DNA of 40,414 nucleotides from an uncultured Gilliamella sp. (GTDB lineage: Bacteria; Pseudomonadota; Gammaproteobacteria; Enterobacterales; Orbaceae). The notes beneath the pieces were generated by a model. The model saw nothing but the letters and a program-made list of their open reading frames with translations, did not search any database and was not told where the DNA came from. Below are positions 21,337 through 39,707 of this stretch, piece by piece; the stretch's first letter is position 1; each line of letters starts with the position of its first letter. The position numbers and the translations under genes are program-made. The DNA is taken from the NCBI GenBank assembly GCA_946481345.1, contig CAMLMY010000017.1, forward strand, positions 1 to 40,414. The letters run 5' to 3'.

Positions 21337-21456
21337 ATAAAATTCAAAATCACAAATAAAAATTGGCGTTAAGTTTAAATGATTCTAAGTTGCGCTGCCA
21401 CTTTTTTATCGTTAACATGAAGTAATAAATTAGCTTTGACTGGATTGGAAATTATT

Positions 21457-22536
21457 ATGCAAAAGATTTTAAATGTAGCACTCGCCAAACGTAGTTATCC
21501 TATAATTATTGGTGAAAATTTACTAAATGAATTCCACCATTTTAAACTTCAGGCAGGTCAGCGCGTGTTAATCGCTACCAATGAAACTATTGCTCCACTT
21601 TATTTACAACCATTAATTGACATGCTAGAAAAGAATGGTGTGAAAACGGATTCCATTATTGTTCCAGATGGAGAAAAATATAAAACCATGGAAACATGGA
21701 ATACTATTTTAACTGCTTTGCTTGCTAATAATCATACACGTAACAGCATACTTATTGCTTTAGGTGGTGGCGTAATAGGTGATGTTGCAGGTTTTGCGGC
21801 ATCGGCATACCAACGAGGAATTAAGTTTATTCAAGTGCCTACGACACTATTATCACAAGTTGATTCTTCAGTCGGTGGTAAAACAGCTATTAACCATCCA
21901 TTAGGTAAAAATATGATTGGTGCCTTTTATCAACCTCAATCAGTTGTTATTGATTTAAATTGCTTAAAAACTCTACCTCAACGTGAATTTTCCGCAGGTC
22001 TGGCCGAAGTCATAAAATATGGGATTATTTTAGATGAAGATTTCTTTAATTGGTTAGAAATACATATTGAAGAATTACTCAATCTAGATGTCAAAGCACT
22101 CAGTTACTGTATTTATCGCTGTTGCCAACTTAAAGCCCAAATAGTTGCAGCTGATGAAACTGAACAAGATATGCGAGCTATATTAAATCTAGGTCATACT
22201 TATGGGCATGCAATTGAGGCTGAACTTGGATATGGCAATTGGTTACATGGTGAAGCTATCAGTGTTGGTATACTCATGGCAGCTCAAACTGCTAAATTAT
22301 TAAATAAATTAACAGATAATGATATTGATCGTATAAAAAACTTATTAATTAAAGCTAAACTTCCTGTAATAAGACCTAAACAAATGTCCATAGAATCTTA
22401 CCTTCCACATATGATGCGCGATAAAAAAGTCCTATCAGGACAATTACGCCTGGTAATACCAACTAAAATTGGACATGCTGAAATTATTGATGGAATTGAA
22501 AAAGAGATAGTATTTGAATCTATACAACGAGTTTAA
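21457..22536 (+). CDS. aroB: 3-dehydroquinate synthase
   Basis: AroB is the second shikimate-pathway enzyme; it cyclises DAHP to 3-dehydroquinate using NAD+ and a divalent metal. The 359 residues match the E. coli 362. The NAD motif [14 protein letters not shown] (about 97-110), the [12 protein letters not shown] segment (about 135-146) and metal ligands (E in LAEVIKYG, H in [10 protein letters not shown] and H in LHGEAI) are intact. ATG 21457 fits the family N-terminus (MQKILNV); an in-frame TTG at 21436 is an unneeded extension. It is divergent from nadE with 120 bases between. The pathway's first gene, aroF, also lies in this window. Confidence 0.97.
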
Positions 22537-22630: not shown

Positions 22631-23851
22631 TTACATTCTTGTTTTTTTAATCTGTTTATAAATAAGATTTAATATTAGCCCCAAAAATGCCACCGCAATT
22701 GCAATATAAAATGCTTTAGTATAATCGCCAGCATTATTGACTAGAATATCAGCAGTTAGTTTTGGCGCAAAAAATGCAGCTGTAGAATAACCAACAAAGA
22801 TAATGCCATAGTTAACACCTTGGTTGATAGGACCATAATTTTCCATCACCATTGGTGGGAAAACACCCATTACGCCTCCAAAACATAAGCCAAGTGCGAT
22901 TATCCCAATGGCAAATCCTGCTTGTGATGGAATAAATAAAAACGAAATAAAAGCAAATATAATTACCGAAAAGATAATATCTAATGTTTTATTTCTTCCT
23001 AATTTATCTGATACAGTGCCCCATACTACTCGCCCAGTACAATTACTTAATGAATATAAACTGACATAAAAAGCAGCAAGGGCAGATGTTAATCCAAACA
23101 TATTTTGTCCAATACCCGAAGCATTTGAAGCAATCATCAATCCGGAAAAAGCGCCAGTACCTAACATAAAGAAAATTAGATAAAAATATGGCGTTTTTAA
23201 CATCTCTTGCCAGTTTTTATTAATAATAGGTTTACTTTGTTGACTGTTTGCTTGAACCCAACCTTCAGGTTCATAATTGGCTGGTGCTACTTTGATAAAA
23301 AAACTAGCAACCATAACAATCATGATATAGGTACAACCTAAAATTTTAAATGCATACAGCACATCAAAACTTTCAATCAAATAGTTACCGATTGGTGCAG
23401 CAATAATTGCTGCACCTCCCATACCAGCAGTAATAATGCCTGATGCAAGTCCACGTTTATCTGGAAAGAATTTAATTGTATTACTTAAGCAACCTGAATA
23501 AGCTAATCCTTGTCCAAAACCACTTAATAAACCATAAGTAATATAAAGCATCAAAGGACTGGTCACATAACCACTCAGATAAAACCCAAGCCCAAACAAC
23601 AAACCACCAATAACACTAGACCATTTAGCTAAACCTTTATCCGTTAAAAAACCACCTAATATCATAGGAATTGGTCCAACGGCTGAATTTATGCCAAATG
23701 CAATCATAACATCTGACATACTCCAATTTTTTGCAATACTTAACGGTCCTGCAAAAACACTAAAGGCATAAATAGCACCAGTACAAAGTAATATTGATGT
23801 TGATGCAACTAGAATAATCCATCTGTTAACATAATTTTTCGCTTTTACCAT
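22631..23851 (-). CDS. MFS transporter, OFA (oxalate/formate, monocarboxylate) family
   Basis: This inner-membrane carrier of 406 residues has about 12 helices. The sequence follows the oxalate:formate antiporter/lactate-type branch (OxlT, YhjX-like): an early [13 protein letters not shown] helix, the loop 2-3 motif GGFLTDKG, the [11 protein letters not shown] helix, [12 protein letters not shown], and the second-half loop GTVSDKLGR. The family moves small mono- and dicarboxylates. Its start lies 26 bases inside the 3' end of the flavoprotein gene, with GGAGT 7 bases before the ATG, so the two are translationally linked. I infer that it imports the reductase's unsaturated acid or exchanges it for the reduced product. 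The substrate is not determined. Confidence 0.85.
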
Positions 23852-26291
23852 TATTAGACTCCATTCTTAGATTTATATCCTTTAATGCAGTCTTGCCAGC
23901 AATTCGACCGAAAGTAAAAATATCGGTTAATGAATTACCACCAAGCCTATTACCGGCATGAATACCGCCAGCAACTTCACCTGCGGCATATAAGCCTTTA
24001 ATTTTTTGTCCTGATTTATCTAACACATGGGTTTGTGTATCAATCCTTAGTCCCCCCATAGTATGATGAACGGCTGGTTTTCTTGGTGTAGCATAAAATG
24101 GAGCAATTTGGACTTTTAAATCAAAAACATCTTTTCCAAATTCAGGATCGTTTCCAGCATCAACATAACTATTATAATTAGTTATAGTTTGTTTGAAGAC
24201 GTTTGCATCCATACCCAGTTTTTGTGCTAACTCTTCTAAAGTATTAGCACAAAATAATGTGCCAGCCGCAATTTGTTTATCAATTTTTTCTTGAGAAGTG
24301 TTATAAGCAGTTTTCTTGATTGCTTCATCAGCAATTAAATAAAATAACCCACCATTATCAATTGCAGCTTGGGTAAGTTTGTCTCGACTACCATACTCAT
24401 TAACAAAACGCCTACCTTGCTTATTAACCATAATGAAGTTTTGTGGAGGAACTTGTAATCCACTAAATAACGCTCCTGTTTCAGGATCAGAAACAGGCAT
24501 CATTTGTGAAAAGCCCATACCAACAAGATCAGCTCCAACACTTTGACCTAAAACGATACCGTCGCCAGTAATAGCTGGCGAATTAGATGTTTTAATATCA
24601 TCGTCGATTTCTGTCCAATAGGTATTATATTCTTTTAACATTTTGGTATTAGCACCAAAACCACCAGAAGCTAAAATAACTGCATCAGCATTCACAGTAA
24701 CTTTTTTACCATTTAAACCACTGCCAATCACTCCTGAAACTTGTCCATTTTCAACAATAAGCTCTTTTACTGCTGTATCAGTAATGATTATACCACCATG
24801 CTCTTCAACATATTTTTGTAATGCTGAAACATAAGCATAACCTTCACTTTTTAGTGGTTTATGACCTCTACGCCATAATGCCCCAACAGGCATTGTCACA
24901 TCATGTTTATCAAATTCAACACCAATATCTTCCAACCATTTAACGGAATCTAACGCTTCATCAGTTAAAATTTTAACTAAATCATATTGGCCATAAATTA
25001 CATTGCCTAACTGGTCAGTTCTTTTACCGCCAAGATAGGTTTGGATACGATGCAACAACGCAGAATCAAATAAATAACCAGTCTTATCTTTATTTTCAGC
25101 CAGATAATCATTAATTTGCTGTCTTAATATTTTAAAATCATCAAGATATTCAGAATCAATAGTCGACTCATCCATTGTCGCAATTTCTTGTAAAGTATGA
25201 CTCTCACCAGCAATAGCAGCAAACGTATTTTGCCATTTTGGATTAGCCGCATTCATTGGTCCTCCCGTACGGACAGTATTACCACCGACAGCAGGGAACT
25301 TTTCAACAACTATAACTTTTTTACCTTCTTGTAAAACACTTGCTGCAGCGGATAAACCAGCACCACCAGCACCCACGACAACCACATCAGTTTCATATTG
25401 CACATCGCTATTATCAATCGCACTTGGAGCTTTTGGTCGTTTACGTAAAACATCAGGATTAGCACCAGCCATCTTAATTGCTTTAGCCACACCATCAATC
25501 ACACCATTACTGGTGATAGAGGCACCTGATAAAATATCCACATTAAGAGTTTGTCCTTCAAGGATTTGTGATGGAATACGTTTAAATACCACATCAGCAA
25601 TGCCTTCTGATTCACCTTCAGTATCAATATCAATTGACTCAATACGATCATTCGACAGTACAACCACCATTGGTAAATCACCGTTATGACCTGGTGCTGT
25701 AACGCAATATCTTCCCGGTTCAAAAGAGATTTCCTCTGGAACATTAAGTAAGCTAACAACTTGGGTAAAGCGAATAAAACGGAAAAAACAACTATCTAAA
25801 AAATCAATAGTACGTTCTGATTTGAGATCACCTTTTTCATCAAATGCTTCATGTGCTCGTCCAAGCAAGAATTCATAGCCTGGCATAACAGTGGCATTTA
25901 CACCTGGCGCATCAAGTATTTGTCTTAGATGTAATTGTGCTCTTGATGAACCTTGTACATCATAAGAAGCACCTACAATCATCACTGGTTTGCCATCAAA
26001 TGGATGTAAATTAAATGATAGCCATTCAATAATGCTTTTTAGTGCCGATGGAATAGAATGATTATGTTCTGGAGTAGCAATAATTACACCATCTGCTTGT
26101 ATAATTTTATTATTAAAATTCTGAATAACCGGATTATTAGATTGATCATCTGTTTCATTAAACATTGGCACATCAATCAATTCTAATATTTCAATTTCAG
26201 CTTTATTAGCAAAATGTTTTTGCATAAATTGTAATAAGATACGGTTATAAGATTCCTGAGCATTTGTTCCAACAATTCCAATTAATTTCAT
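23826..26291 (-). CDS. CrdB-like NADH:enoate reductase (FMN_red + FMN_bind + fumarate reductase FAD domain)
   Basis: The 821-residue flavoprotein has three domains. Residues 1-180 are an NAD(P)H:FMN reductase domain ([31 protein letters not shown]). Residues 190-280 are an FMN_bind domain with the flavinylation motif SGAS at 255-258, so FMN is probably linked through S258. Residues 300-805 are a flavocytochrome c/fumarate reductase FAD domain with GAGGAG (307-312), R636 in GSRDKLT matching the proton-donating arginine of that family, HHTMGG (742-747) and NRLGGN (781-786). There is no signal peptide or heme motif, so it is cytoplasmic and draws electrons from NAD(P)H. This order matches CrdB of the Vibrio ruber NADH:cinnamate reductase. 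Cinnamates, acrylate, urocanate or fumarate are possible substrates. Confidence 0.85.
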
Positions 26292-26914
26292 TATAGTGCT
26301 CCTTCTTCAGCTGCTTGTTTCCAACTAAATTTCTTATTTTGTTCCGTATTAAATTTTGCTTTCTTGAGTAATTCATTAGTAAGAGTAACAAACAAAATGA
26401 ACTCATCGAAACATTCATCTAATTCTTTAACTTTATCGTGGTAGATAAGATCACCATTTTCATCAAAAGCTTGGAGAGAATGCCCTAAAAGAAATTCTGA
26501 ACTTGGCATAATTCGTGCTTTTAACTCTGGTGCATCTAAAATTTGCCGTAAATGCGCCTGTGCTCTTGAAGAACCTAACGAGCCATGAGAAGCCCCCACA
26601 ATCATTACACATTTATTAATGAGTGGACGAGTTGTGTAAGACAACCACTCAATAGCACTTTTTAAAGCTGCAGTAATTGAATGATCATATTCTGGTGTGG
26701 CAATAATTACCCCATCAGCATTTTCAATTTTATCTGATAACTCTTTTACTGTTGAAGGTGGCGTTTTATCTTTAGGTTCATTAAATGCGGGCAACGACTT
26801 TATTTCACAGACTTCAATTTCTGCTTTGTCTGCAAAATGCGCTTTCATAAAATGGAGTAATTTTCTATTAGTTGAACGATCCGAATTTGTGCCAACTATG
26901 CCAATAAATTTCAC
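26291..26914 (-). CDS. NAD(P)H-dependent FMN reductase, CrdA-like partner subunit
   Basis: This 207-residue flavodoxin-fold protein of the NADPH:FMN reductase/azoreductase family shows [18 protein letters not shown] and [16 protein letters not shown]. It is plainly paralogous to the first 180 residues of the next gene, with long shared stretches. In the Vibrio ruber enzyme a single-domain CrdA pairs with CrdB through such domains, and I infer the same here. The start is GTG (26914-26912), 7 bases after GAGG. Its TAA overlaps the next gene's ATG by one base (TAATG), so the two should be made in linked amounts. The C-terminal 35 residues are an extra basic tail. Confidence 0.85.
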
Positions 26915-27110
26915 TTTAAAACCTCACTTAGTACCTTTCAGTACAAATTTTATTAATATCTAACTTTTTCAAAATAAATTCTTTAGAAATCCCGCAAAAC
27001 AGTTGTATATTTAATTATTAGATTTAGTATGTTTATTTTTGGGTAATATGCTTATAAAAGTTAGTTTAGAACAGAAAAATCCATTTGTGAAATAGCTGAT
27101 TAATTATAGG

Positions 27111-27132
27111 GTTATAAGCAATTTGTTATAAC
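27111..27132. promoter_or_regulatory. Inverted repeat, candidate LysR operator
   Basis: GTTATAA (27111-27117) and TTATAAC (27126-27132) are exact inverted repeats separated by 8 bases, 27 bases before the lysR start and about 200 bases from the divergent reductase operon. LysR regulators commonly bind such dyads next to their own gene. It is not a textbook T-N11-A site, so the role is inference. Confidence 0.45.
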
Positions 27133-27159
27133 ATAGTAAAACAGGAAATGAGATATAAA

Positions 27160-28104
27160 ATGACTAAAATAAATTCATTAAATATGCTGCAATACATTGA
27201 TGTTTTACTTAAACATGGCAATTTTACCAAAGCTGCAAAAAATCTTTATATTTCTCAATCATATTTAACGCAAACAATAAAAAAAGTAGAAAACCAAATT
27301 GGTATTGAAATCATTAATCGTCAAACGATTCCTTTACAATTAACAGAAGCAGGTAAAATTTATTATCAATATCTAGTTTCACTGGTGGACAAACAAGAAC
27401 AATTTAAACGAAAAATCAAAAAGTACACGGATACAAATTACACCGTAATTCAAATAGGTGTATTACCTAGTTTAGGTACATATTTACTGCCACTATTTTT
27501 GCCTGCATTTATGCAAAAATATCCAAATATAAAAATTGAATTACATGAATATACGCCAACAAGTCTTGAAGAAAAAACAGAAAATAATATGTTGGATTTT
27601 TTTATTGGACAAAATCCCGAAACAATATCACAAAACTTAATTAGTCATGCTTGTGGCAAACATTGCTATTATGCGCTAATCCCGCAAAGCTCAAAACTTT
27701 ATCAAGAAAATCCTAAAATGCTTGGATGTAATGATGATTTTATAAAAAAGTTACTACAAGAAAAACTTATTTTAACAGCGCATGGCTCTGCAATTCGTCA
27801 TCAGATTGAATATCTAATTCAAAAATATAAAATTGAACCCCAAATAATTCTTGAAAGTAGTAATATTTTCACTCTTGTTGAGTTAGCCAAAAAAGGAATT
27901 GGTATCACTTTCATTCCAGAAAGTGTCAATATTTGTAATAAAAAAAATGATCAAGCTTATAATTTATTACCACTGCCATTAGAACTGATTTCGGTTAATT
28001 ACTTTATTGCGTACTCTGCAAATAAAACTTTAAATTCAGCGGAAAAGGGACTTGTTGATATTTTTATATCATCCCTTAATCGTGAAGCGATGTCATTTAA
28101 CTAA
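27160..28104 (+). CDS. LysR-family transcriptional regulator
   Basis: The 314-residue protein has an N-terminal winged helix (about 5-65) with the family pattern NFTKAAKNLYISQSYLTQTIKKVE and a substrate-binding-like effector domain (about 90-305). I take ATG 27160, with TGAGA 7 bases upstream; ATG 27148 is possible but AGGAA directly abuts it. It is transcribed away from the reductase operon and is the only regulator in the locus, so it probably senses that operon's substrate or a metabolite. It converges with apbE, whose stop is 27 bases away. The effector is unknown. Confidence 0.9.
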   Translation: MTKINSLNMLQYIDVLLKHGNFTKAAKNLYISQSYLTQTIKKVENQIGIEIINRQTIPLQLTEAGKIYYQYLVSLVDKQEQFKRKIKKYTDTNYTVIQIGVLPSLGTYLLPLFLPAFMQKYPNIKIELHEYTPTSLEEKTENNMLDFFIGQNPETISQNLISHACGKHCYYALIPQSSKLYQENPKMLGCNDDFIKKLLQEKLILTAHGSAIRHQIEYLIQKYKIEPQIILESSNIFTLVELAKKGIGITFIPESVNICNKKNDQAYNLLPLPLELISVNYFIAYSANKTLNSAEKGLVDIFISSLNREAMSFN

Positions 28105-28130
28105 TACAATTTAATTTATAAAATAATTTA

Positions 28131-29051
28131 TTAAATAGGTAAACCATCTGAGCAAGCAAACTTATGATTAACTGTAACAATCATTCCTTCAATGTTAGGT
28201 ATTTTATTTATAGCTGATATAGCATACTGAGCACTTGCACCATAAAGCTGAGTAGTCCAAATTTCACCGTCTAGCGATTTTTTTGACACAATACTAATAC
28301 TGGTTAGATCTGTTTCTACAGGGTAACCGGTTTGGCTATTAAAAATATGATGATAGGTTTTGCCATTATAATTAAATGTTCGTTCATAGATACCTGATGT
28401 TACCACTGACTGATTTTTAATTTTTAGCGCAGTGATAACATTTCCTCTCGGTTGAAAAGGATTCTGAATACCAACCCGCCAATATCCATCATCATGAAAA
28501 GGACAATCACCAAAAGTTAGAACATTTCCGCCTAAATTAATAAATGCTGCTTTGGCATTTTGTTGTTTAAAAAACTCAATGATTTTATCAGCAAAAAAAC
28601 CTTTAGCTAATGCACCTAAATCAATAGCCATTCCCGGTTGAGTGAGAAAAACTGAATGATTAGATTCATCTAAAACAATGTTTTTAGGATTAATAAGCTT
28701 TAATTTTTGTTGTATTTCTATATCAGAAGGATATCTAGCATCATAAAAACCAACTCGCCAAGTTTGAATTAAAGGCCCTATTGCAATATTTAAAAAACTA
28801 TTATCAATAGTACTTTGGATTTTACCAATCCTAATTAATGCAAAAAGGTCTGCTGACACTGGCACAAATTTAACACCAGCATTATGATTTATCTTCATTA
28901 ATTCTGATTTAGGATTGTTGGCACTAAAACGGCGCTCATAATCCATCAATCGGTTTTCAGCTTCATTTAATAACACTTCTGCATTATCGTCCAACAACCA
29001 TATTTCAATTATAGTTCCCATTATATGAATATATCGTCTTTGTTGATGCAT
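28131..29051 (-). CDS. apbE: FAD:protein FMN transferase, cytoplasmic form
   Basis: ApbE attaches FMN from FAD to Ser/Thr of target proteins through a phosphoester. The 306 residues show the family motifs: GTIIEI near the N-terminus, SELMKIN, AIDLGALAKGF (about 164-174) and NLGGNV. The protein starts MHQQRRYIHIMG, with no signal peptide or lipobox, unlike E. coli ApbE, so it stays in the cytoplasm where the flavoprotein of this locus should be. The segment usually holding a Mg2+-binding Asp reads LDGEIWTTQLYG here. AGGA lies 9 bases before the ATG. It very likely flavinylates the FMN_bind domain of the CrdB-like protein. NQR/RNF subunits elsewhere in the genome are alternative targets. Confidence 0.92.
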   Translation of the reverse strand: MHQQRRYIHIMGTIIEIWLLDDNAEVLLNEAENRLMDYERRFSANNPKSELMKINHNAGVKFVPVSADLFALIRIGKIQSTIDNSFLNIAIGPLIQTWRVGFYDARYPSDIEIQQKLKLINPKNIVLDESNHSVFLTQPGMAIDLGALAKGFFADKIIEFFKQQNAKAAFINLGGNVLTFGDCPFHDDGYWRVGIQNPFQPRGNVITALKIKNQSVVTSGIYERTFNYNGKTYHHIFNSQTGYPVETDLTSISIVSKKSLDGEIWTTQLYGASAQYAISAINKIPNIEGMIVTVNHKFACSDGLPI

Positions 29052-29291: not shown

Positions 29292-29340
29292 TGTAATTCT
29301 GTGTTTACATAGTGGGCGTTTATGTAATTAATATTTTACA
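29292..29340. promoter_or_regulatory. Paired TyrR boxes of aroF
   Basis: Two boxes, 29292-29309 and 29323-29340, both read TGTAAT-N6-TTTACA, 11 of 12 matches to the TyrR consensus. They begin 31 bases apart, about three helical turns. The second ends 37 bases before the aroF ATG, so TyrR bound there would block the promoter. This supports tyrosine-mediated repression of aroF. Confidence 0.8.
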
Positions 29341-29377
29341 TATAAAATGTTTAAAAGATTTTCATAAGGAAAGCAAA

Positions 29378-30463
29378 ATGTTAAAAGATACTTTGAATAA
29401 TGTTCGAATTAGAGATGAGCATATGTTAATCACCCCTGATGAAATAAAACAACTTTATCCACTTTCTCCAGAATTAGAAAACCAAATTGCCTTATCACGC
29501 AAAACTGTAGTTGATATTCTAGAAAGAAAAGATCCGCGATTACTTATTGTCTGTGGCCCATGTTCTATCCATGATCCTCAAGCAGCCATTGAATATGCAC
29601 ATAAATTAAAAAAATTATCTGACGAAGTCAGTAATGATTTATTTATTGTTATGCGTGTTTACTTTGAAAAACCTAGAACAACTGTTGGTTGGAAAGGTAT
29701 GATAAACGATCCACATATGGATAGTTCATTTGATATTGAGCATGGACTGAAAAAAGCCCGTAAATTATTACTTGATATCACTAAAATTGGTTTACCTATC
29801 GCTACCGAAGCATTGGATCCAAACACACCACAATACATTGCCGATTTAATTAGCTGGTCTGCCATAGGTGCAAGAACCACAGAATCACAAACCCATCGTG
29901 AAATGGCATCAGGTTTATCCATGCCAGTCGGTTTTAAAAATGGTACCGATGGTAATTTAGATGTCGCAATTAATGCCATGAAGTCAGCTTCTATGCCTCA
30001 CCGCTTTGTAGGTATCAACCAGCAAGGTCAAGTGACGGTTTTACAAACTGTCGGTAATTCGCATGGACATGTGATCTTACGTGGGGGTAAAGCTCCAAAT
30101 TATGATGCTGAAAATGTCGCACTATGTGAAATACAGATGAAAAAAGCAGGGTTGTTACCAAATTTAATGATCGACTGTAGTCATGCCAATTCTAATAAGG
30201 ATTACCGTAACCAACCAATTGTTGCCGATTCAATTATTGAGCAAATCAAACATGGCAATAACTCAATTATTGGAGTGATGATTGAAAGTAATTTGGTTGA
30301 AGGTAATCAATCTTCTGAGCAACCAAAAGAAAACTTTAAATATGGAGTATCCGTGACCGATGCTTGTATCAACTGGAATGAAACGGAAACATTACTTCGA
30401 AAAATGGCAAGTACGTTATCACAACCACTTGTAGCAAGACAAACACAAGATGCTAGCGTTTAA
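29378..30463 (+). CDS. aroF: DAHP synthase, tyrosine-regulated type
   Basis: DAHP synthase joins PEP and erythrose 4-phosphate in the first shikimate-pathway step. The 361 residues fit the AroF/G/H class: the metal-binding cysteine in CGPCSIHDP (about 58-66), VYFEKPRTTVGWKG, IGARTTESQTHRE, PVGFKNGTDG and the SSEQP tail region. The N-terminus (KDTLNNVRI..EHMLITP) and many internal choices read as AroF, the tyrosine-inhibited isozyme, rather than AroG or AroH. ATG 29378 follows AAGGAAA by about 6 bases; upstream in-frame starts add unrelated sequence running into the TyrR boxes. Those boxes agree with the AroF assignment. A strong terminator follows. Confidence 0.93.
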   Translation: MLKDTLNNVRIRDEHMLITPDEIKQLYPLSPELENQIALSRKTVVDILERKDPRLLIVCGPCSIHDPQAAIEYAHKLKKLSDEVSNDLFIVMRVYFEKPRTTVGWKGMINDPHMDSSFDIEHGLKKARKLLLDITKIGLPIATEALDPNTPQYIADLISWSAIGARTTESQTHREMASGLSMPVGFKNGTDGNLDVAINAMKSASMPHRFVGINQQGQVTVLQTVGNSHGHVILRGGKAPNYDAENVALCEIQMKKAGLLPNLMIDCSHANSNKDYRNQPIVADSIIEQIKHGNNSIIGVMIESNLVEGNQSSEQPKENFKYGVSVTDACINWNETETLLRKMASTLSQPLVARQTQDASV

Positions 30464-35139: not shown

Positions 35140-38100
35140 GTGGAATTTATTTTTTTATTCCTCATTATTATCGCTCTATTTATTGGAGTATTTGTTAATA
35201 TTTCTAATTTAAAAGAACAAATTTGGGTATTACAAAATCAACTGACGGAATTACAAAAACATCTTTTATCTTTTACGCAGCAACATTATGTATCAAATAA
35301 AGCTAATGTTGAAGAAGAAGAAAGTTATACAGATCAAACATCTTCTACCCCTACAGTTAATAACAATCTTGATTCCCAAAACAAAAACAATTCTATTGAA
35401 ATTAAACAAAGTGCCGAAATAACTCAATCAATGATTAATACTCATTGTGATGAAACAGAAAACTTTTCGGAATCATTAATACCAGAAATAGAAGTAAAAC
35501 AGCCTTTAAGTCACTACCATCAAGAATCAACATTCTCAACTTTGGCATTTAATGAAAAAAATGATCAAGCTTTAGATGACTTAGTTAATCAAACTAATTT
35601 AGAACCAATAGCTGAAAAAGTAGTGGGTGTTGAACATAATGAACAATATTCTGAAAAACAAAAAGTTACAGAGCAAGCATCATCAATACCTATAACCAAC
35701 TCAGATAGTCAACCTGAAATTAAAGAGGTGTCACAAGATACATTTAATTCAAACCATAAACAATCAGACGACAATGAAATCAATATCGGTTATGTTTTTT
35801 TCAATTGGTTAATTAAAGGTAATATCATTGCGAAAGTTGCAATTGTGATCCTGTTTTTAGGATTATCTTATCTATTTAAATATAGTATTGAGCATAACTA
35901 CATGTCACCTGAAATCAGAATTTTAGGTGCCGTAATATTAGGTATTGGATTATTAGCTGCTGGATGGAAATTACGCTTAAAACGCCAAATTTATGCCCTT
36001 ATTCTACAGGGAGGGGGGATTGCTGTTTTATATCTTACTATTTTTGCGGCTTTCAAGTTATATGAATTAGTTCCAGCTTTATTTACATTTGCTATTTTAG
36101 TTGTTATATGTTCTACCAGTATTTTATTTGCAATATTACAAAGAGCGATGAGCTTGGCAATTATTGCTTGTGTTGGGGGATATGTAACACCAATTTTATT
36201 ATCTAACGGTTCTGGTAACCATATTGCATTATTTAGTTATTATTTAATGATTTCAGCAGCAATATTGGTAATCAGTATCACACAATCTTGGAGAAGTCTT
36301 AATTTATTAGGATTTTTATTTACTTTTGTCATCTCGTTAGTTTGGGGAATAAATAATTTTACCTCAGAATTTTATATTGAATGTCAAATATTTATATTTG
36401 CTAATTTAGTTATCTACGGGATTTTAGCTGTATTATTATCAGTCCGAAGCATACGTAGAGAAGAGTATCAAAATATAATTGATTTGCTGTTACTGTTTGG
36501 TGCACCATTATGTGGGTTTGGATTACAATATGCTATCACTCAACGGTGGGAATTTGGTCCTGCATTTTCATCATTAGGATTTGGATTATTCTATCTCGCT
36601 GGTGCCTATATTATTTTACATAAATGGAAATCACTAGCTAAAACAATATCATTATTTTGGCTAGCTATTGGGGTTTCATTTATTACATTATCTATTCCGC
36701 TGGCACTTAGCGCCAATTGGACCGCTTTATTATGGATGTTTGAAGGAACAGCCATTACTTGGATTACGCTATCTCAAAAATATTACCGAACAGCTTTATT
36801 TGGTGTATTAATCACGTTACTAGGTATCATTTCGGTATTGATATCTTTAGCATATAATCAAATAACCCCAATATTATTCACTTTACTTTCAGGAATAAGC
36901 AGTATTATTTTATTTATTAATGCTTGTTTGTGGCATTACTATGGACAAAAAACTGAAATAACTAGAGTGATAAAATTATCTTATTTATCTATTTCTATTA
37001 TTAGTTGGATATTATGGATTTTATTGAGTGTTCCACTATTTTTAGATCAAACCCCTTTTGAAATTTCATTAATTTTATTATGTGAAACTGCTTCAGTTTG
37101 GTTATGGTATTTCATAGGTAGAAAAATTAATTGGAGTATTATATGTAATGGGATGTTATTACTCTGGATTGCACTGATTATAAGCTTATATAAAAGTGAG
37201 AGCGCCTCATGTTATTATTTATCAGACTATTGGATTTGCAGTTTAGCTTGGATCATAACGTTCATAAGCTGTTATGTTTATTTATATAAAATAAATTCAG
37301 CAAAAATTAATAATAATCTAATAAATGATAACCATCTAATTTTACTACATATTAGCCTGTTTTGGATGCTATTATACTGGTTACTTCAAGAATTAATTCA
37401 TATATTCGATGCCTTACCATGGGGATATGAAGTCATAAAATGGAGTTTAATGGCAACCATCGCATGTAGTATTATTTTACTGTTTTATTTTCTTATTAAA
37501 CGCCAATATATTACTTCATTCTTATTAATAAAAAGTTATTGGGCTGTGGGCTTACTTCCCCTAATTGGATACATTGCATACTATTTGGTTGCGGGTCTAA
37601 GCATGAGTGGTCAAATTATCTATTGGAGTTATATTCCAATTATTAATCCACTTGAAGAAAGTGCTATTTTTAGCTTACTCATGTTTAGCGTTTGGATAAA
37701 ATTAATGACAAATTATGTGCAATTTGACAATAAAACAACTAACTTTGTTAGCTGGAACATTCCATTACCTAATTGGATTTTAATATCGTTAGCAACCTTA
37801 ACATTTCTTTGGGGTAATAGTGTCGTATTGCGCTGTTTGAGTCAAATATTTGATATCACTTGGAACACACATACTTTGTGGCACAATAATATTGTACAAA
37901 TGACCGCATCGCTCCTCTGGATGCTAAGCGCTGTAATTTTAATCGCCATTGGACACCGTTATTCTTTTCGTAAAATATGGTATAGCGGACAGTTAATTCA
38001 AATCACCGTAATTATTAAACTAATATTTGTTGATATACAAGAAACTGATGGTTTATTACGTGCATTTGCATTTATTGGTATAGCATTATTAATGTTATTA

Positions 38101-38163
38101 ATCGGTTATTTAGCACCTATACCGCCAAAACAAAGTGATGAAGATATAACCATAAAAAATTAA
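35140..38163 (+). CDS. DUF2339 polytopic membrane protein
   Basis: The 1007-residue protein matches the DUF2339 family, which has no known function. Residues 1-20 are a membrane anchor, 22-45 look like a short coiled coil (LKEQIWVLQNQLTELQKHL), and about 50-220 form a polar, acidic, Gln/Asn/Ser-rich, low-complexity linker. From about residue 224 to 1000 it is almost continuous transmembrane helix, over twenty segments, beginning with the family hallmark GNIIAKVAIVILFLGLSYLF. The start is GTG, about 8 bases after AAGGAA. The next gene encodes a DUF3999 protein, a frequent partner of this family. They probably act together at the inner membrane and periplasm. Confidence 0.85.
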   Translation: MEFIFLFLIIIALFIGVFVNISNLKEQIWVLQNQLTELQKHLLSFTQQHYVSNKANVEEEESYTDQTSSTPTVNNNLDSQNKNNSIEIKQSAEITQSMINTHCDETENFSESLIPEIEVKQPLSHYHQESTFSTLAFNEKNDQALDDLVNQTNLEPIAEKVVGVEHNEQYSEKQKVTEQASSIPITNSDSQPEIKEVSQDTFNSNHKQSDDNEINIGYVFFNWLIKGNIIAKVAIVILFLGLSYLFKYSIEHNYMSPEIRILGAVILGIGLLAAGWKLRLKRQIYALILQGGGIAVLYLTIFAAFKLYELVPALFTFAILVVICSTSILFAILQRAMSLAIIACVGGYVTPILLSNGSGNHIALFSYYLMISAAILVISITQSWRSLNLLGFLFTFVISLVWGINNFTSEFYIECQIFIFANLVIYGILAVLLSVRSIRREEYQNIIDLLLLFGAPLCGFGLQYAITQRWEFGPAFSSLGFGLFYLAGAYIILHKWKSLAKTISLFWLAIGVSFITLSIPLALSANWTALLWMFEGTAITWITLSQKYYRTALFGVLITLLGIISVLISLAYNQITPILFTLLSGISSIILFINACLWHYYGQKTEITRVIKLSYLSISIISWILWILLSVPLFLDQTPFEISLILLCETASVWLWYFIGRKINWSIICNGMLLLWIALIISLYKSESASCYYLSDYWICSLAWIITFISCYVYLYKINSAKINNNLINDNHLILLHISLFWMLLYWLLQELIHIFDALPWGYEVIKWSLMATIACSIILLFYFLIKRQYITSFLLIKSYWAVGLLPLIGYIAYYLVAGLSMSGQIIYWSYIPIINPLEESAIFSLLMFSVWIKLMTNYVQFDNKTTNFVSWNIPLPNWILISLATLTFLWGNSVVLRCLSQIFDITWNTHTLWHNNIVQMTASLLWMLSAVILIAIGHRYSFRKIWYSGQLIQITVIIKLIFVDIQETDGLLRAFAFIGIALLMLLIGYLAPIPPKQSDEDITIKN

Positions 38164-38312
38164 AAAATGATATAAAAAGATTATAAAAACAATTTAACTT
38201 AATGACTTTAAGTGATTATTTTGAAAAATTCAGGAAAAATAAAATTGATTTGTTCGTAGTTAAAAGAAAATTAAATTCCTGAATAATTATTTATATTAAT
38301 GGATAGAAAATT

Positions 38313-39707
38313 ATGAAAAAAATCTTATTCAGCTCCCTTTTGCTAATAAGTGGTTTGTGTCAAGCAACTGATCAAACTAATCAATATGCTTATGGCGCTA
38401 TAATAGAAATTAGTGATAATACTAGCATGTATAATCGAATAGACTTGACCAGTGAAGTTTATACTCAAACATTATCAAACACATTAGATGATATACGCGT
38501 TTTCAATCATAAAGGTCAACTAGTGCCTTTTGCCTTAGTGAATGTTTATCAACAATATGATGAAAATGACACCTTTCCTGTCACTGTATACTCATTAGAT
38601 AATACTCAACAATCTTATAAAAAAGAGGAACAACAAAATAAGCCTCCAATAGATCAATACAGTATTAATATCAATAATAAAAATGTGCAAATTTACCTTG
38701 ATAACACGAGTAAACAGGAGGAATATAGTGCAACCTACTTGTTACAAATCCCTAATGAAATTAAATTAGAACAACCATTCAGTCGTTTATCTATTGATTT
38801 TGATACATCCAAAAATCTAAATTGGCAAGCAACAGCTAACCTACTTTATAGTAATGATTTAAAAAAATGGCAAACTGCAATTAATGACATTCCTATAATG
38901 TCCTTGATAGATAACAACAATAATCAATCATTAAAAGTTAATACTATCGATTTACCGTCCGGTATTAATTTCAAATCTAACTATTGGATTTTACGATTAA
39001 AATCCGATAAGAAAATAGTTCCTAGTATTAAAGGAGTTGAATTTACGTCAAGAAAACAAATGCCAACAAAGGCTCTTTATCCTATTAATTTCGATTTAAT
39101 TTCTGCAAATGAGCAAGAGGCTATTTATCAATTACCAACATCACTACCAATAAAAGAACTCTCAATTAAACTAAAAAATGAGCGAACTGTCTTACCTGCA
39201 AGTATCTATTATAAAATTAGTGATAATGATAAAACGTGGCATAAACTTGATGATTATATTTTTCGGCGTATAAATGATGATAAAGGTCAATCAATTAAAA
39301 TTGATAATTCAGTACTAAATATTAAACAGCTAAAAATCAAAGCAATTAATGCTTCTTTAAATGATGCTCCTCTCGTGACTGCTTATCGCTATCGAATGAG
39401 TGTTATTTTCAACAGTGCCAATAATGGACCTTTCATTCTTGCTTGGGGGTCAGCCAATGCTCAACCCGCTTCATTAAGCGAAAAAGCTCTACTTAATGAC
39501 TCAATATCCCCTCAAAATGTGCCTGAAGCTTATTTAGGTGATAATGTCAAGTTAGGCAACAAAAAAGTATTATCTAAAACAGAAAATGTTTCAACTAAAT
39601 CACCTATATTATTAAAATTGTTAATTTGGGGTGTTTTAATTGCAGGTTCAATATTTTTAATGTTTTTAGCTTTGAAATTATTAAAAGAAATGAAAAAGGT
39701 AGAATAA
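38313..39707 (+). CDS. DUF3999 membrane-anchored periplasmic protein
   Basis: The 464-residue protein fits the DUF3999 family. A Sec signal peptide (KKILFSSLLLISGLCQA) probably ends near residue 18; a large extracytoplasmic beta-rich part (about 20-430) contains DDIRVFNHKGQLVPFAL near its start; one membrane helix (about 436-456) and a short basic tail (KLLKEMKKVE) close it. The C-terminal anchor would leave the bulk of the protein in the periplasm. It follows the DUF2339 gene by 149 bases on the same strand, and the pair recurs in other Gammaproteobacteria. Function is unknown; a link to envelope polymers would be speculation. Confidence 0.82.
   Translation: MKKILFSSLLLISGLCQATDQTNQYAYGAIIEISDNTSMYNRIDLTSEVYTQTLSNTLDDIRVFNHKGQLVPFALVNVYQQYDENDTFPVTVYSLDNTQQSYKKEEQQNKPPIDQYSININNKNVQIYLDNTSKQEEYSATYLLQIPNEIKLEQPFSRLSIDFDTSKNLNWQATANLLYSNDLKKWQTAINDIPIMSLIDNNNNQSLKVNTIDLPSGINFKSNYWILRLKSDKKIVPSIKGVEFTSRKQMPTKALYPINFDLISANEQEAIYQLPTSLPIKELSIKLKNERTVLPASIYYKISDNDKTWHKLDDYIFRRINDDKGQSIKIDNSVLNIKQLKIKAINASLNDAPLVTAYRYRMSVIFNSANNGPFILAWGSANAQPASLSEKALLNDSISPQNVPEAYLGDNVKLGNKKVLSKTENVSTKSPILLKLLIWGVLIAGSIFLMFLALKLLKEMKKVE

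Follow-up and report, generated by a model that had tools for sequence, protein, structure and literature searches.

The window analysed here, a stretch of 40,414 nucleotides from an uncultured Gilliamella sp. (contig CAMLMY010000017.1 of assembly GCA_946481345.1), contains between positions 22,631 and 29,051 a five-gene locus which, on comparison of its sequence with known systems, is with a probability of roughly 0.8 a horizontally acquired HcrRAB-type hydroxycinnamate reductase system, equipped with a carrier and a flavin transferase of its own. This kind of enzyme is already known from Lactiplantibacillus and Gilliamella is a new host for it. A preliminary description of the same DNA had proposed a cytoplasmic enoate reductase for hydroxycinnamates, dependent on reduced nicotinamide adenine dinucleotide (NADH), and this is the best-supported reading, the nearest tested relative, HcrAB of L. 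plantarum, being about 70% identical. The exact substrate, the order of electron transfer, the direction of transport and the benefit to bacterium and bee are matters on which we infer what is said below. The features of the locus are as follows.

22631..23851, minus strand: OFA-family carboxylate transporter of the major facilitator superfamily (MFS), probable hydroxycinnamate and/or phenylpropionate carrier (MFS_1, E 2.7e-36)
23826..26291, minus strand: HcrB/CrdB-type reductase, 821 amino acids (aa) (Pfam domains and identity to HcrB relatives)
25518..25538, minus strand: predicted flavinylation motif D-I-L-S-G-A-S in HcrB, D252 to S258 (sequence)
26291..26914, minus strand: HcrA-type single-domain flavin mononucleotide (FMN) reductase subunit, 207 aa (PF03358, E 3.3e-36)
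27148..28104, plus strand: HcrR-type LysR regulator, divergent from hcrA (HTH_1 and LysR_substrate)
28131..29051, minus strand: cytoplasmic ApbE flavin adenine dinucleotide (FAD):protein FMN transferase (PF02424, E 1.7e-71)

The side-by-side arrangement of these five genes (MFS, reductase, FMN_red, LysR and ApbE) is as first described, and so is the three-domain flavoprotein: Pfam places FMN_red at residues 1-147 of HcrB (family E 3.7e-37), FMN_bind at 201-273 (1.2e-12) and FAD_binding_2 at 302-788 (2.7e-68), and the SGAS is present in the sequence. The hcrB and hcrA genes have 1 base in common and hcrB and mfs overlap by 26 bp. As all three overlap on the minus strand they look like a single operon. 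The apbE gene shares this strand but is separated from them by lysR, and is therefore probably transcribed alone; its product scores 241 bits for the ApbE domain, above the curated cut-off of 25.6. No signal peptide was visible when the N-termini of HcrB and ApbE were inspected by eye, in agreement with the preliminary description. ApbE, however, probably has a separate transcript and may serve another enzyme as well. A scan of genome contigs gave 243 relatives, of which the best 80 were listed, seven from Gilliamella and 73 from elsewhere. The seven show 90-99% identity, which places the window in this bee-gut genus. At 12 of the 73 listed non-Gilliamella loci (L052, L054, L056, L057, L060, L063, L065, L067, L076, L077, L078 and L117) the order of the window, that is apbE, divergent lysR, hcrA, hcrB and OFA carrier, recurs intact, which puts the five-gene set far beyond chance. 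Palindromes of the form T-N11-A were not found between lysR and hcrA in the window, and none was shared beyond near relatives in the first 25 of 50 stretches. Promoter-like sites were not enriched relative to shuffled sequences (32 found, 37.4 expected) and 6 terminator-like sites were found against 3.5 in shuffles.

The window HcrB aligns end to end with 43 relatives. The nearest homologues, with 79-81% identity, are from Enterococcus, Amphibacillus and Vagococcus, and the 73 listed relatives from outside Gilliamella are Bacillota with best-segment identities of 69-80% and nearly full coverage, one of them ending at a contig edge. In Lactiplantibacillus (the genus of locus L104), 16 of 21 genomes match HcrB at E 1e-100 or better, 14 over the full length. 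Among six Lactiplantibacillus loci that were fetched, L170 and L171 encode, when lengths are read from conserved starts, a LysR protein of 315 aa, HcrA of 204 aa and HcrB of 812 aa, followed by a protein of 186 aa. The lengths of HcrR, HcrA, HcrB and HcrC in L. plantarum WCFS1 are equal to these (PMC11126511) and the L171-type locus was accordingly taken as L. plantarum HcrRABC. The identity of the window proteins to those of L171 is 50% for HcrR, 69% for HcrA and 70% for HcrB. The Gilliamella locus shares with L. plantarum HcrRABC (lp_1422 to lp_1426) the three-domain HcrB, HcrA, the LysR regulator HcrR, the flavinylation motif and the active-site set. It differs in having an OFA carrier after hcrB and ApbE beside lysR, neither of which was found within ~6 kb at L170 or L171, and in having no counterpart of the 186-aa HcrC. 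At L170-L173 lysR is divergent from hcrA, as in the window, and the placement of hcrR downstream of hcrB given in a review (PMC10295242) was not seen at these loci. For L. plantarum it has been reported that HcrB is the smallest unit able to reduce hydroxycinnamic acids with NADH and FMN, that HcrA raises the production of HcrB and that there is no activity when HcrR is missing (PMC10295242). Other proteins with an HcrB-like FMN_red domain at the N-terminus (50-61% identity) were seen in two Lactiplantibacillus genomes (G966 and G967) and in Streptococcus sobrinus (G968); their lengths differ, the open frames being 423-451 and 771-788 aa.

The closest known system had been given in the preliminary description as the Crd NADH:cinnamate reductase of Vibrio ruber. 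HcrRAB proved closer (~70% against 67-68% identity), with probable Vibrio homologues second. In the genus that is probably Vibrio (227 genomes), 11 genomes have a full-length homologue with 67-68% identity and a further one (G939) has it in two pieces. All 11 loci carry apbE, lysR, hcrA and hcrB. They are unlike the Gilliamella locus in that ApbE runs with lysR and no OFA carrier is found within ~6 kb. The likeness to Crd, whose layout is taken from the preliminary description, lies in the FMN_red subunit, the FMN_red/FMN_bind/FAD_binding_2 subunit, LysR and ApbE. The Crd-type two-subunit layout and the flavinylation motif are seen in the window, and covalent FMN is predicted. The assignment of the genus to Vibrio draws on plasmids of Vibrio that align, at 81-85%, with a quarter of the DNA around one of the loci (L161); a second stretch from this genus (L036) gave no plasmid match. 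The FMN_bind/FAD half occurs, with 55-66% identity, in seven plasmid records (including CP127381.1:92326-94179 and CP033373.1:154862-156718) from Aerococcus, Limosilactobacillus fermentum, Lactobacillus amylolyticus, Staphylococcus epidermidis and Vibrio. In this plasmid search no record covered 80% of HcrB and the seven partial records had no matching FMN_red domain. The L. fermentum plasmid protein may be the HcrF mentioned in PMC11126511.

Further evidence on the type of reductase came from alignment of a profile of 44 HcrB sequences with the urocanate reductase UrdA of Shewanella oneidensis and with FccA. The alignment is gapless between UrdA 373 and 411, and positions were counted on the printed HcrB/UrdA/FccA alignment. 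Residues at these columns were tallied in 113 HcrB rows, which represent 101 distinct sequences. UrdA Arg411, His520, Arg560 and Gly563 correspond to HcrB Arg636, His742, Arg782 and Gly785, the first three of them catalytic, and all four are kept in 113/113 rows. The urocanate-site residues differ: Tyr373 is replaced by Met598 (Met in 111 rows and Leu in two), and Asp388 and Arg390 by Gln613 and Pro615, each in every row. The fumarate reductase set of His365, Glu378 and Arg381 is likewise absent, with Met598 in place of His, Pro615 in place of Arg and no Glu in the aligned stretch Gly611-Leu612-Gln613. Since the recognition residues are replaced by Met598, Gln613 and Pro615, the window HcrB appears to be of neither the fumarate nor the urocanate reductase kind, and the active-site comparison called for in the preliminary description thus favours the reading given there. 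An AlphaFold model of HcrB (predicted local distance difference test score 79.9, predicted template modelling score 0.66) has FccA and UrdA as its closest folds, the FAD_binding_2 fold being shared with UrdA (TM-score by target 0.87). The confidence of the model is under 50 in two segments, 565-574 and 779-785; as the second surrounds Arg782, the active-site argument is drawn from the alignment. The domains of UrdA described in PMC7921117 are one for FMN, one for FAD and a clamp, and the FMN_red domain of HcrB is not among them. With a flavinylation motif of the form D-x-x-[S/T]-G-A-[S/T] (PMC12052999), an FMN phosphoester is predicted on HcrB Ser258. The acceptor is Ser in 111 of the 113 HcrB rows and Thr in two; it is Thr in all 16 rows of a separate Orbaceae reductase of 930 aa (FRD) and in 5/5 rows of a group of ~1000-aa reductases with an N-terminus like that of Old Yellow Enzyme (OYE).

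Of the other substrates that might be considered, fumarate would make HcrB a second NADH:fumarate reductase and a redundant fumarate sink. HcrB passes the flavocytochrome c family TIGR01813 (341.6 against 285.45 bits) and fumarate reductase folds are among its best structural matches. However, the fumarate-binding His, Glu and Arg that HcrB lacks are all kept by FRD in 16/16 rows, 15 of them from Gilliamella, so that fumarate would be left to a separate enzyme, which is a point in favour of hydroxycinnamates. This is consistent with the NADH:fumarate reductase described for Gilliamella (PMC11325843). That Klebsiella-type enzyme (Frd), present in most of the Gilliamella genomes searched, resembles HcrB in its ApbE-linked FMN_bind and FAD_binding_2 core, and in using NADH (PMC11325843), the donor proposed for HcrB, but differs in its length of ~930 aa, its N-terminus, its His/Glu/Arg fumarate site and its Thr acceptor. 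A fumarate reductase identity was rejected on the active-site columns and a role as fumarate sink is extremely improbable. Urocanate, obtained from the host or from neighbouring bacteria and reduced to imidazole propionate, is also a 3-aryl acrylate. UrdA is among the closest solved structures to HcrB, and at the column of UrdA 373 HcrB has a residue other than His, the criterion of one survey for true UrdA (PMC7676231). Set against this is the loss of Asp388, which is needed for urocanate reduction, the D388A variant being inactive (PMC7921117, where His at 373 marks fumarate reductases), together with that of Arg390 and Tyr373; a urocanate reductase identity was rejected on these columns. 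In addition, the tested close relative reduces hydroxycinnamates (PMC10295242). The histidine ammonia-lyase family PF00221 was found in none of 35 Gilliamella genomes, some of which are incomplete, and once in another Orbaceae genus, with 5 of 14 controls positive; urocanate would therefore have to come from outside. We regard urocanate as an improbable substrate.

A short-chain or broad enoate reductase acting on acrylate, methacrylate or another small acid, imported by a lactate-like carrier, would accord with the grouping of the carrier with L-lactate carriers in NCBIfam, and with the presence of Met598 and Pro615 in 5/5 rows of the nearest relatives outside the hcr clade, which are the OYE-fused reductases. 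Two Gilliamella genomes (G006 and G013) have such reductases, as do further genera of the order (L015, L035 and L032-L034 in all). They are possibly of the acrylate reductase type, the acrylate reductase of V. harveyi being of this OYE-fused ~1000-aa kind. Against such a role for HcrB, the identity of its reductase half to the OYE-fused group is no more than 54-57%, columns beside the aligned substrate site differ (Phe609/Leu, Gln613/Ile and Ser595/Val) and the window HcrB branches with the hcr clade with support of 100 in the SH-like approximate likelihood ratio test (SH-aLRT); a small acid as substrate is quite improbable. HcrB might also reduce some other hydroxycinnamate-like compound, such as a conjugated pollen phenolic or a phenolic of the oleuropein or gallate type. 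Oleuropein and gallic acid have been reported to induce L. plantarum hcrAB as well (PMC10295242), and the range of the Hcr family may therefore exceed hydroxycinnamates. The same review, however, reports only hydroxycinnamates as substrates, and according to PMC11126511 the hcr genes are not induced by gallic acid, so this too seems unlikely.

The carrier passes the NCBIfam model NF049980 for the SfMCT L-lactate MFS transporter (424 bits against a cut-off of 320) and fails that for the oxalate/formate antiporter OxlT, TIGR04259 (167.5 bits against 335). The OFA carboxylate transporter of the preliminary description is right as to the family, with the qualifications that NCBIfam places it with the SfMCT L-lactate carriers and that it seems helpful to the system rather than essential (see below). 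Among 44 Orbaceae genomes the carrier is intact in 11 of 13 Gilliamella genomes that carry the cluster, and the sole match outside Gilliamella, with 55% identity, is in a genome of another genus (G043). The presence of oxlT without oxalate metabolism has been reported in 32 of 95 Gilliamella genomes (PMC11325843). This published 'oxlT' could be the OFA carrier of the hcr cluster, which may explain that finding.

Several points weigh against the assignment to hydroxycinnamates. In the remaining 2 of the 13 carrier genomes the OFA carrier is in fragments (G016:C3:269252-269912 and G032:C1:870660-870863) with hcrB intact; the reductase can outlive the carrier, which is why the latter appears helpful but not essential. 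HcrC is absent from the Gilliamella locus. The identification of the L. plantarum genes was made by subunit lengths only, within the Lactiplantibacillus search, and the hcr clade also contains streptococci. In L. plantarum the presence or induction of hcr genes does not guarantee the phenotype, and cinnamic acid is an inducer of hcrB but not a substrate (PMC10295242). Finally, feeding of p-coumarate to Apis cerana left the core genera, including Gilliamella, unchanged (PMC13115751).

The origin of the cluster was approached with a quick tree, for which the analyst selected 56 rows. In this tree Gilliamella HcrB is monophyletic (SH-aLRT 100) and nested within Bacillota rows, the branching order between it and Enterococcus, Vagococcus, Amphibacillus and others being unsettled. 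The Gilliamella, Lactiplantibacillus and probable Vibrio rows fall in one group of 44 rows (SH-aLRT 94), and the hcr group of 52 rows is separated from four OYE-fused rows with an SH-aLRT of 100. The probable Vibrio rows branch with Clostridia, apart from Gilliamella. A clade of Gilliamella and Vibrio, as expected from shared gammaproteobacterial ancestry, was rejected by the approximately unbiased (AU) test (p-AU 2e-5), as was a sister relation of Gilliamella and Lactiplantibacillus (p-AU 9e-6, for a group named after the tree had been seen). The five-gene order is common to Enterococcus and other Bacillota. In clostridial loci apbE is on the lysR strand and there is no adjacent carrier, although L125 has an MFS homologue with 34% identity 1.3 kb away; at most of the streptococcal loci the carrier is divergent and nothing nearby matches LysR or ApbE. 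The nesting of Gilliamella in Bacillota rows, together with the shared gene order, supports the acquisition of the hcr cluster by horizontal transfer from a Bacillota donor. As the AU test rejects the Vibrio and Lactiplantibacillus groupings, this donor can be narrowed only to Enterococcus- or Vagococcus-like Bacillota.

Of 35 Gilliamella genomes 13 have full-length hcrB, and nine other Orbaceae genomes have none. In the window the cluster lies between the following genes, with purL and nadE also among its neighbours.

21436..22536, plus strand: aroB, left flank of the insertion site (TIGR01357, 393 bits)
29312..30463, plus strand: aroG-type 3-deoxy-D-arabino-heptulosonate 7-phosphate (DAHP) synthase, right flank of the insertion site (TIGR00034, 546 bits)

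The aroG locus was examined, among the loci listed, in 29 other Gilliamella genomes (11 carriers and 18 non-carriers, with five genomes left out). In 11/11 of these carriers apbE adjoins aroG, and in none of the 18 non-carriers is an hcr-cluster gene found within ~1.5 kb of aroG. In 16 of the non-carriers aroB stands beside aroG, the two genes being at most 417 bp apart in 12 of them; in the other two (G019 and G026) aroB was not within reach. A tree of aroG from 30 genomes requires at least four changes in the hcr trait, which suggests either one gain followed by losses or spread by exchange at the aroB-aroG site. The source assembly is 75% complete in 97 contigs. It holds two aroG-type genes (G000:C17:29312-30460 and G000:C1:109415-110524), one of them 100% and the other 88% like that of the window. 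In the other 43 Orbaceae genomes a single such gene was seen at the limit used, and the source bin may therefore mix two Gilliamella species. Elsewhere in the window, positions 35140-39707 encode a DUF2339 membrane protein of 1007 aa followed on the same strand by a DUF3999 protein, and a 217-aa open frame at 18710-19363 matches neither a Pfam nor an NCBIfam model at the limit used.

The ApbE of the cluster, which is 40% identical to the native Gilliamella ApbE, is the only ApbE found in three hcr-carrying genomes that are 99-100% complete (G003, G015 and G032). In these genomes the fumarate reductase is intact, with the motif D-T-I-S-G-A-T (L212, L213 and L214), and the apbE gene that usually adjoins it in Gilliamella is absent. 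The simplest reading of these sequences is that the imported ApbE would serve both HcrB and fumarate reductase in the three genomes. Across the family, all 34 of the 44 Orbaceae genomes that have ApbE also have an FMN_bind-type reductase match, and none of the 10 without it does, two of the latter having only FrdA-like matches of 601-615 aa. Against a clean pattern of replacement, nine other carriers keep at least two ApbE genes. They include G036, whose hcrB is 99% identical to that of the window. This bin, however, is 81% complete and has a fumarate reductase closer to that of G028 (91%) than are those of the three carriers (83-85%), and it may therefore be mixed. In the source genome one ApbE and no fumarate reductase were found, the assembly being incomplete. 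It is possible, though we put it forward only tentatively, that Gilliamella took a whole module for plant-acid respiration from Bacillota and that in some species the imported ApbE displaced the native one, flavinylating both HcrB (on Ser) and Frd (on Thr); pollen hydroxycinnamates would then be an electron sink, and phenylpropionates bee-gut metabolites, only in the carrier species.

In the mechanism proposed for the hydroxycinnamate reductase, HcrR would sense a hydroxycinnamic acid (p-coumarate, caffeate or ferulate, for example) and switch on hcrA-hcrB-mfs. The OFA carrier would bring hydroxycinnamate in, entry being partly by this route, and/or take the phenylpropionate product out. NADH would reduce the flavin on the FMN_red domain of HcrB, with HcrA stabilising or assisting, and electrons would pass to the FMN bound covalently to Ser258 by ApbE and then to FAD. 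FAD would give a hydride to the beta carbon and Arg636 would protonate the alpha carbon, yielding phenylpropionic acid. The net effect would be to regenerate NAD+ without lactate or ethanol and to remove an inhibitory plant acid. Reduction of ferulate as a fermentation electron acceptor has been described for FarAB of Weissella cibaria, which differs in that its route is via feruloyl-CoA and its proteins are, according to the authors, unrelated to Hcr (PMC13101492).

No report of an HcrAB-type reductase in Gilliamella was found in the open-access literature, as judged from a listing of papers, and the main text of a survey of 95 Gilliamella genomes contains no word starting with cinnam-, coumar- or ApbE (PMC11325843). 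According to that survey, Gilliamella is confined to microaerobic respiration and fermentation. Both pollen and nectar have been reported to contain p-coumarate (PMC13115751). That three carrier genomes are without the native apbE provides a natural test of how far ApbE proteins can replace one another, and the patchiness of the cluster (13/35 genomes) makes carriers and non-carriers directly comparable. If the reading presented here is true, it offers a testable route by which bee-gut bacteria would convert the p-coumarate, caffeate and ferulate of pollen to phenylpropionates, gaining NAD+ in the process.

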